DNA of 35,144 nt from Thermococcus sp. (GTDB taxonomy: Archaea; Methanobacteriota_B; Thermococci; Thermococcales; Thermococcaceae), in assembly GCF_015523185.1 (NCBI RefSeq), contig NZ_WAKV01000056.1, positions 1 through 35,144 on the forward strand, read 5' to 3'. A program made the position numbers and the translations under genes. Below, one piece after another: positions 12,245 to 35,144 of this stretch (position 1 is the stretch's first letter; each line of letters starts with the position of its first letter). Below the pieces are notes generated by a model that was given only the letters and a program-made list of their open reading frames with translations, made no database searches and had not been told where the DNA came from.

Positions 12245-12322
12245 GGGCCGGTAGCTCAGCCTGGTTAGAGCGCGGGGCTTTTAACCCCGTGGCCGCGGGT
12301 TCGAATCCCGCCCGGCCCGCCA
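12245..12322 (+). tRNA. tRNA-Lys (anticodon UUU), CCA encoded
   Basis: The full cloverleaf can be drawn: acceptor GGGCCGG/CCGGCCC, D-arm GCTC/GAGC, anticodon stem CGGGG/CCCCG with loop CTTTTAA (anticodon TTT), T-arm GCGGG-TTCGAAT-CCCGC, and discriminator G. The mature body is 75 nt (12245-12319), followed by an encoded CCA. The 3' half and 34 nt of trailer are identical to those of the tRNA-Arg gene facing it at 13343-13420. Confidence 0.96.
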
Positions 12323-12356
12323 TCAGCCCTTGCAAAGCAAGCACTGGCGGAAAAGT
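12294..12356 (+). repeat. Left copy of a perfect 63-bp inverted repeat covering the tRNA-Lys 3' half and trailer
   Basis: Identical, in inverted orientation, to 13309-13371. It contains the T-arm, 3' acceptor strand, CCA and then 34 nt of non-tRNA sequence including the small hairpin CTTGCAAAGCAAG and ending ...GGCGGAAAAGT. Identity stops immediately inside that point. The tRNA part may be constrained by function; the 34-nt trailer is not. Confidence 0.93.
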
Positions 12357-12734
12357 AGTGCCTTTTTAAAGTGCCCATCTCTGAGGTAGGTTTCTTCGAT
12401 GTCCCCCCCGGTTGTTAGTGTTTCTTTCTATTTCTTTCTAAACGACGTCAGGAGGTTGCCAGAAACAGGTTGAAACCGCTTGGGAAGGCTTCATTTAGTG
12501 TTAAACCTCGACTTGAATTGCCTCTAGTTAGTGCACGACTGGTTTTTTTTGCAGATTTGGTGAGAAGGAGCAATTTTTTCACCACCCTCTCCCAAAGGCT
12601 GAACGCGAAGTTTGGCCAAGTTTGGTGATTTTTGAGTGCTCTGTTCTTTTGTAAGTGTTTGCATTTCTGGATAGCCTTTTGAAGCATAGAATTTCCTATC
12701 AGGGAGCATTTGTGTTAGGTTTTGCAATTTCCCC

Positions 12735-12751
12735 GCGCTCCAAAGGAGCGC
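12735..12751. repeat. Hairpin in the island, 7-bp stem
   Basis: GCGCTCC-AAA-GGAGCGC, a perfect GC-rich stem in AT-rich surroundings. The AAA loop is the same as in the trailer hairpin CTTGC-AAA-GCAAG. Confidence 0.7.
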
Positions 12752-12786
12752 CTTTAATAAGTAAAATCATGACTAAAGGGGTTTTA

Positions 12787-12804
12787 AGGGTAAATTTTTA
12801 CCCT
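12787..12804. repeat. Near-perfect palindrome in the island
   Basis: AGGGTAAA-TT-TTTACCCT, an 8-bp stem with a 2-nt centre, closer to a protein-binding palindrome or cruciform than to an RNA terminator. Confidence 0.65.
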
Positions 12805-13070
12805 AAAGGCATTATTTTAAAGTGCAAACTTCATGAAAGAGCACTAAAAGGGAATCACGAACTTTGATGAAGCTTTTTCTAAAAGTTTCACGCTGGCAGA
12901 AGATTTCTTACTCTATTATCCTTTGATAAGTATCTTAGCTCTAGAGAAGTTCCTAAAGGGCGTTGTTCCAAAGAAGAACTATCAAAAACAAGTAAGTGGG
13001 AGAATAAACTTCATTAAAACCTTCAATTCATCAAAAATAGCATTCTAACCTTGCTCGAACTTCGCACGGG

Positions 13071-13089
13071 CAAGCTTTAGGAAAGCTTG
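13071..13089. repeat. Hairpin in the island, 8-bp stem
   Basis: CAAGCTTT-AGG-AAAGCTTG, a perfect stem with a 3-nt loop. Confidence 0.65.
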
Positions 13090-13308
13090 ACCAAAGATAG
13101 CCCTTACCACTCAAAAGGGCAAAGATTAGCCGTGCACTACTCAAAAAGCAACTCAAGACAGAATTTATCACTAACTGAAACTCTTCAGGCAGTTTCAACT
13201 TTGTTTTTTTGGCGTCCGAAGAACGCCGTTTGCAAAGTGAAATACTCTGCAAGGAGTAAGTAAATTAGAAATCCACTCAGAAGACTGCAAATTTCAAAAA
13301 AGAACTTC

Positions 13309-13371
13309 ACTTTTCCGCCAGTGCTTGCTTTGCAAGGGCTGATGGCGGGCCGGGCGGGATTCGAACCCGCG
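13309..13371 (-). repeat. Right copy of the 63-bp inverted repeat covering the tRNA-Arg 3' half and trailer
   Basis: Read on the minus strand it is base-for-base the same as 12294-12356, from CGCGGGTTCG in the T-arm through CCA to GGCGGAAAAGT. The two tRNAs differ in D-arm and anticodon arm, so this is not a simple duplication of a whole tRNA. Confidence 0.93.
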
Positions 13372-13420
13372 ACCTTCGGCTCCGGAGGCCGACGCTCTAT
13401 CCAGACTAAGCCACCGGCCC
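13343..13420 (-). tRNA. tRNA-Arg (anticodon CCG), CCA encoded
   Basis: Cloverleaf on the minus strand: acceptor GGGCCGG/CCGGCCC, D-arm GCTT/GAGC, anticodon stem TCGGC/GCCGA with loop CTCCGGA (anticodon CCG), T-arm GCGGG-TTCGAAT-CCCGC and discriminator G. The 75-nt body lies at 13346-13420, with CCA at 13343-13345. A TATA-like TTTTTAAGTC at about 13445-13454 (minus) is correctly spaced. It faces tRNA-Lys across the AT-rich island. Confidence 0.95.
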
Positions 13421-13514
13421 AACCCAAAATGAGTATTGAGAGTGACTTAAAAACCTTAACCCCTGCCAAAACACTTTTTAGGGCAAAGATAAGAGTACTA
13501 GTTAGGTGAGACGC

Positions 13515-13880
13515 ATGGAGCCCCACGAGTTCAAGCTAACCGAGGAAGGCATCAAAGCCGTTCTCCCTCCCCTCGAGGCCGAAATAATGGAGCACATGTG
13601 GAAGGTCAAAGTTGCAACAGCAGGTCAGGTTTACGAGCATATGAAGCAGAAGCACCCTGAGATAAGGCGCTCCACCATAAGCATTCTGATGAACCGTCTC
13701 TGCGAAAAGGGACTCCTTAAGAGGAGTGTTGAGAAGGGCAGGGGTGGGATGAGATATGTATATTCAATAACAACGACCAGGGAAGAGTTCGAGCAGAAGG
13801 TCGTCCAGAGTATCCTCGACGCCCTGATGACAAATTTCAGAGAGGCAACCTACGCGTATCTCTCACGGATAAAGAAGTGA
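13515..13880 (+). CDS. BlaI/MecI/CopY-family transcriptional repressor
   Basis: Winged-helix repressor of 121 aa. The family pattern is clear: LPPLEAEIMEHMWKVKVATAGQVYEHM (helices 1-2), RRSTISILMNRLCEKGLLKR (recognition helix) and the wing RGGMRYVYSITTT, then a C-terminal dimerisation helix. Bacterial relatives repress their own operon and are inactivated by a membrane metalloprotease. The ATG at 13515 is chosen over the GTG at 13506 because AGGTGAG (13504-13510) is the ribosome site of the former and overlaps the latter. It is followed after 6 nt by an M48 membrane protease and then a dCMP deaminase, so the three are probably one operon and autoregulated. It lies right beside the tRNA-Arg gene. 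Confidence 0.88.
   Translation: MEPHEFKLTEEGIKAVLPPLEAEIMEHMWKVKVATAGQVYEHMKQKHPEIRRSTISILMNRLCEKGLLKRSVEKGRGGMRYVYSITTTREEFEQKVVQSILDALMTNFREATYAYLSRIKK

Positions 13881-34677: not shown

Positions 34678-35144
<467 letters not shown>

Follow-up and report, generated by a model that had tools for sequence, protein, structure and literature searches.

A probable array of gene-less, hairpin-ended mobile elements between facing tRNA genes of a Thermococcus genome

The island of about 950 bp that separates the facing tRNA-Lys(UUU) and tRNA-Arg(CCG) genes of a Thermococcus sp. draft genome was found to consist of hairpin-bounded modules that recur throughout the genus. We consider it probable (roughly 78%) that non-autonomous mobile elements settled at RNA-gene ends and built up the island as an array. 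The exact core string was found in no open-access paper, and searches of the open-access literature for Thermococcales repeats, MITEs, hairpin elements and tRNA introns turned up no account of the hairpin family. This gene-less, hairpin-ended mobile family is apparently undescribed so far.

The facing tRNA pair and the modules between

The window, i.e. the whole stretch of 35,144 nt that was analysed, belongs to a fragmented draft assembly of 85 contigs, several contig ends being located inside elements. Both tRNA genes, including their encoded CCA, were predicted by ARAGORN (ttt and ccg) and Rfam, tRNA-Lys at 12245-12322 on the plus strand and tRNA-Arg at 13343-13420 on the minus strand. The longest inverted repeat without a mismatch extends over exactly 63 bp (CGCGGGTTCGAATCCCGCCCGGCCCGCCATCAGCCCTTGCAAAGCAAGCACTGGCGGAAAAGT), with its left arm at 12294-12356 (plus strand) and its right arm at 13309-13371 (minus strand). 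It comprises 26 bases of the tRNA 3' half, the CCA and a 34-nt trailer, which is the start of an element; no inverted 22-mer match was detected beyond it within the 35-kb window. ARAGORN, Rfam and the inverted-repeat search confirm the facing pair described by the initial annotation. The same annotation had called the island AT-rich and gene-free, which was confirmed: its GC content is 39.6% (51% for the window), among the lowest of 684 sliding windows, and no credible ORF was found, the minus-strand ORF at 13185-13526 overlapping the tRNA. In the Rfam scan of the window only tRNA and rRNA were matched, and neither island nor element corresponds to a curated family. The flanking genes encode a radical SAM protein on the left, and a penicillinase-repressor-like regulator and an M48 peptidase on the right. 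The 3' part of an archaeal 23S rRNA lies at 34727-35144 on the minus strand.

The island is made up of approximately 3.5 copies of ~280-bp modules bounded by hairpins. Alignment of the copies beside tRNAs distinguished two module types, and every one of these copies begins directly 3' of the CCA. Module I measures about 270-280 bp, with hairpin L at its start (CAGCC-CTTGC..GCAAG-CGCTGGCGGAA), a central hairpin (GGCGTCC..GGACGCC) and hairpin R at its end (TTTTGGTCAAGCTTT..AAAGCTTG). Hairpin R is an inverted relative of L, so terminal inverted repeats are present. Module II is palindromic (GAAACTTTGC..GCAAAGTTTCATCAAAG ... CTTTTGGTGAAGCTTT..AAAGCTTC).

The modules follow each other in the order I, II and a truncated I start, after which come a II-like piece and I, oriented the other way. 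The left copy of module I (12324-12601, plus strand) is degenerate; it opens with the terminal hairpin L of the left element (CAGCCCTTGC-AAA-GCAAGCACTGGCGGAA, 12324-12352, plus strand) and its end, AAAGGCTG, is an inverted relative of L. Module II (12602-12888, plus strand, outer bounds approximate) displays a central hairpin GCGCTCC-AAA-GGAGCGC at 12735-12751 and a right hairpin end AAAAGTTTC at 12888. The adjoining 5'-truncated fragment resembles the module I start (CACGCTGGCAGAAG...) and was delimited partly by eye at 12889-12951 (plus strand), its extent being uncertain. On the minus strand, the right copy of module I (13071-13341; hairpin L at 13313-13341, central hairpin at 13211-13227, hairpin R at 13071-13089) is followed by a partial second module, II-like according to its matches to loci L019 and L026 (12952-13070). 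At other loci the hairpin-to-hairpin spacing was about 270-320, 500-610 and 800-880 bp, which indicates serial modules.

Covariation was evaluated on 29 copies of module I. Three local hairpins were predicted, comprising 24 pairs with 99.0% of the cells paired, and compensatory change on both sides was observed at 10 of the 24. The score was matched by none of 500 shuffles, and slid controls collapsed. A rod fold of the whole module was rejected as unsupported, only the three local hairpins showing covariation. The single-sequence fold of the window copy was weak (z = -1.84). The conservation of the hairpins would be compatible both with a transposition system that recognises hairpins and with an RNA function.

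Distribution, insertion sites and turnover

The search of the island against Thermococcales, which the initial annotation had suggested, showed that its sequence is not unique and revealed a dispersed repeat family. Pieces of the island matched about 12 further places in its own genome (69-84% identity, several at contig ends), and matches were present in 56 of the 61 genomes of the genus. The latter fell mostly on island query positions 725-1019 and the inverted counterpart 2-311, with a separate piece around 500-590. The exact L pattern (CAGCC-stem-CGCTGGCGGAA) was detected in 65 of 94 Thermococcales genomes, and the reversed control gave 0 in every one. In the complete genome G010, seven of nine exact L sites directly follow a tRNA. 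In the genome of the window, contigs C69, C71, C19, C79, C12, C48, C14 and C22 have ends within or beside elements or their tRNAs; contig ends in elements suggest that the family limits short-read assembly here.

Among 76 sampled distinct Thermococcales L sites, 45 begin 1-5 nt after the tRNA 3' end (CCA), while the rest are mostly found at other RNA or gene ends. Reading of the upstream sequences assigned these other contexts to C/D-like sRNAs (L232, L192, L294, L297), H/ACA-like sRNAs (L189, L295), a small RNA with a conserved GATGACGTCGGGACC core (L231, also L044 and L047), tRNA 3' halves (L277, L176), stop codons (L261, L265, L268) and positions immediately ahead of start codons of the opposite strand (L173, L177, L183, L193, L196, L236, L281, L292). 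Islands start behind the C/D-like sRNA genes at L232, L294 and L297, and at L232 a second C/D-like sRNA faces the first, parallel to the tRNA case. The start-codon site of one gene is occupied in three species (L173, L177, L196). Some insertions thus appear to be old or recurrent. Since some of the sites upstream of genes are common to several species, not all copies are young.

At L277, L176 and L045 a tRNA 3' half directly precedes the L hairpin; such halves are likely att remnants of integrated plasmids. The copies in general could be remnants of integrative plasmids or viruses with att sites at tRNA 3' ends (pTN3 or pT26-2 type), of which only the flanks survive. The tRNA genes are known integration sites in Thermococcales (PMC5495485, PMC2718504), and the resemblance of the halves at L277 and L176 to att remnants is in line with this origin. 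It is nevertheless very improbable. Neither the island nor the L pattern was matched in plasmid and phage collections or in viral contigs (a 16-mer matched 81 viral contigs, the hairpin none), no integrase or other ORF lies inside, repeated modules are found instead of plasmid sequence, and non-tRNA copies carry 15-20-bp duplications.

Direct evidence of mobility was obtained from two clean insertions, both at protein genes; among the tRNA-adjacent copies neither a target duplication nor a clean empty allele sharing the downstream gene was seen. The first, in G030, is an insert of 153 bp with a 20-bp target duplication, flanked by TCATTTCTTCCCACC(T/C)CCCA; at the empty sites of G018, G005 and G012 the two flanks join without interruption, with an 18-bp overlap of their matches. 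The second, in G003, is an insert of 88 bp with a 15-bp target duplication, flanked by TTCGGGAGGGAGTGA, and the flank matches overlap by 16-17 bp at the empty sites of G020 and G047. Of 203 L sites, 27 have flanking direct repeats with a score of 14 or more, some of them being neighbouring tRNAs, and 2,436 shuffles never exceeded 11. The true target duplications range from 13 to 58 bp, and duplications of such variable length fit no standard DDE transposase. At L128 (1537-1720) and L130 (1570-1690) perfect direct repeats of 58 and 42 bp enclose the L hairpin, in the extreme case with nothing but the 29-bp hairpin between them. All L-R pairs within 3.5 kb were checked for ORFs; no convincing autonomous copy, no transposase-bearing copy and no mobilising enzyme was found among these loci, and no copy contains a gene.

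For the initial annotation, conservation of the island across the genus would have argued for an old functional RNA locus. The sequence is indeed genus-wide, but its positions turn over. The tRNA-Lys trailer is module II in G010 and module I in the genome of the window, and the tRNA-Arg(CCG) of G010 is empty. That a given tRNA bears an element in one species but none, or a different one, in another points to mobile DNA and not to a fixed functional trailer. A conserved RNA, transcribed with the tRNA or sRNA for 3' processing, termination or protection, would agree with the covarying hairpins, with the strict placement 1-5 nt after the CCA and also behind C/D-like or H/ACA-like sRNAs, and with a T-run ~45 nt after the CCA in many copies. 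We regard it as quite unlikely. In addition to the turnover, only 17 of 44 tRNAs in G010 and about 12-14 of 40 in the genome of the window carry I or II (by simple motif classes), copies with target duplications are also located at starts and stops of protein genes, and there is no match to an Rfam family.

Origin of the shared 3' ends and of the facing arrangement

Long identities at tRNA 3' ends are also found elsewhere. In G010, tRNA-Lys and tRNA-Arg(TCG) are identical over 26 bp of tRNA and 114 bp of trailer, and two tRNA-Leu genes share 39 + 292 identical bp. The similarity of the trailers tracks that of the tRNA 3' halves (permutation test; r = 0.37, p = 0.003 in G010 and r = 0.62, p < 0.001 in the genome of the window). 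The 26 + 37 bp of the window represent the same kind of case as the pairs of G010, which makes homogenisation between tRNA 3' ends the likely cause of the 63-bp identity. This agrees with the gene conversion between tRNA 3' ends that had been suggested for the pair.

The facing arrangement is a separate matter. Homology of the left flank and tRNA-Lys to G045, G010 and G013 stops at or just past the CCA, and that of the right flank and tRNA-Arg to the same genomes starts at the CCA of tRNA-Arg. The two loci lie at separate places in all three, among them the closest relative, G045. Since homology breaks off at the tRNA 3' ends, the facing arrangement results from a rearrangement at these ends, barring an error of the draft assembly here. 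The published account reports Thermococcus inversions by the pTN3 integrase with breakpoints at oppositely oriented tRNA pairs, the crossover lying in the tRNA 3' half and the conserved sequence right after it (PMC5495485). Breakpoints at tRNA pairs and the involvement of the 3' half with conserved downstream sequence are features in common with the present case; the portion of the account at hand differs in naming no element behind that sequence (PMC5495485). Inverted recombination at tRNA sites, another of the origins initially offered, agrees with synteny breaking precisely at the 3' ends of both tRNAs as well as with this mechanism.

Alternatively, the assembly could have joined two tRNA loci through the 63-bp end or the repeats, an error that would leave the element family unaffected. 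The separation of the loci in G045, G010 and G013 and the many contig ends in or beside elements would be accounted for in this way. Such an artefact is unlikely, given that the contig crosses ~950 bp of island whose halves diverge from each other. Furthermore, in G004, G005 and G028 tRNA-Arg and the right genes come after the left gene and tRNA-Lys is missing from this place, so left flank, tRNA-Arg and right flank are genuine neighbours in other species.

Taking the island as an array of mobile elements, the following course may be proposed. An enzyme encoded elsewhere would recognise the hairpin ends and insert copies at RNA-gene ends, and later copies would insert beside earlier ones to form arrays. 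The tRNA genes with similar 3' halves may then swap the 3' end together with the element, by gene conversion or integrase-type recombination. Such an exchange would yield the 63-bp identity, and a chromosomal rearrangement would bring tRNA-Lys and tRNA-Arg face to face. No host function would be required. Among the origins put forward at the outset, a decayed element with terminal repeats came closest, since a dispersed mobile family contributes the 34-nt trailer as its terminal hairpin and the island is an array of its members. Taken together, the three origins are partly supported, and membership in a genus-wide family, patchily present across phyla, comes in addition.

Known systems, other archaea and significance

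The family shares with MITEs and small palindromic prokaryotic repeats its short, gene-less and dispersed copies, terminal inverted hairpins, target duplications and insertion polymorphism. Dispersed non-coding copies, terminal inverted repeats and, at two loci, precise insertion with duplication relative to empty sites were all found. In contrast to MITEs, its duplications measure 13-58 bp, RNA-gene ends are strongly preferred as sites, arrays are both head-to-head and serial, no parent element could be found and the end hairpin is common to archaeal phyla. In fungal mitochondria, mobile double-hairpin elements are similar in that they settle within or next to structural RNA genes; the present family differs in sequence and organisms, in its longer modules and in its demonstrated target duplications of 15-20 bp. 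Insertion of IS200/IS605 elements produces no target duplication. Related non-autonomous elements (PATEs, omega-RNA-like repeats) have hairpins near both ends, as here, and repeat-derived ncRNAs related to OrfB elements occur in Pyrococcus (PMC3124441). In the present family, however, insertion was accompanied by duplications of 15-20 bp. Casposons generate target duplications of around 14-15 bp. They are likewise archaeal and insert at tRNA 3' ends (PMC4046053, PMC6614799); unlike them, the present family has hairpin ends, duplications of up to 58 bp and copies devoid of cas1 or any further gene (no ORF of comparable size inside).

Beyond Thermococcales, the L pattern was scanned in one genome per GTDB species and was found in a few Aenigmatarchaeota, Altiarchaeota, Pacearchaeota, 'Thermoplasmata' and unclassified euryarchaeal genomes. 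Ten genomes behind these hits, including DPANN and Altiarchaeota, contain 1-13 copies each (control 0). Within the phylum of an Aenigmatarchaeota genome, L was present in only 4 of 145 genomes sampled, and one further genome had a single control match. The stems vary (CTTGC/GCAAG, CTTTC/GAAAG, CTTTT/AAAAG) around a constant outer CAGCC...CGCTGGCGGAA. Patchy presence in multiple copies is the pattern expected of a mobile element. The densest recent set seen was that of the 'Thermoplasmata' bin AUK033, with 13 near-identical short L elements (L070, L080, L083, L086, L119, L124). Shewanella matches, with homologous context and no flanking duplication, were taken as chance.

In some DPANN and euryarchaeal genomes L lies in the anticodon loop, D-loop or T-loop of tRNA genes (L113, L065, L094, L102, L103). 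ARAGORN reads L113 as a tRNA-Glu(CTC) with a 56-nt intron holding L, and L065 as a tRNA with a 74-nt intron holding L; the other three were recognised by eye only. Brute-force splicing tests gave too many solutions to be informative. A bolder and doubtful proposal is that a cross-phylum hairpin family targets RNA transcript ends, its long variable duplications arising perhaps by RNA-templated insertion, and that the copies in these genomes are spliced tRNA introns, i.e. an archaeal 'introner' that creates tRNA introns.

The chromosomes of Thermococcus have undergone extensive scrambling, and the inversions published so far have their breakpoints at tRNA pairs (PMC5495485). A mobile element placing near-identical sequence after many tRNAs would provide substrates for recombination there, and may explain the conserved sequence after tRNAs noted in that work. 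The end hairpin shared by unrelated archaeal phyla points to a mobilising enzyme with an unusual choice of target, and the presence of L inside DPANN tRNA genes offers a testable route to new tRNA introns.
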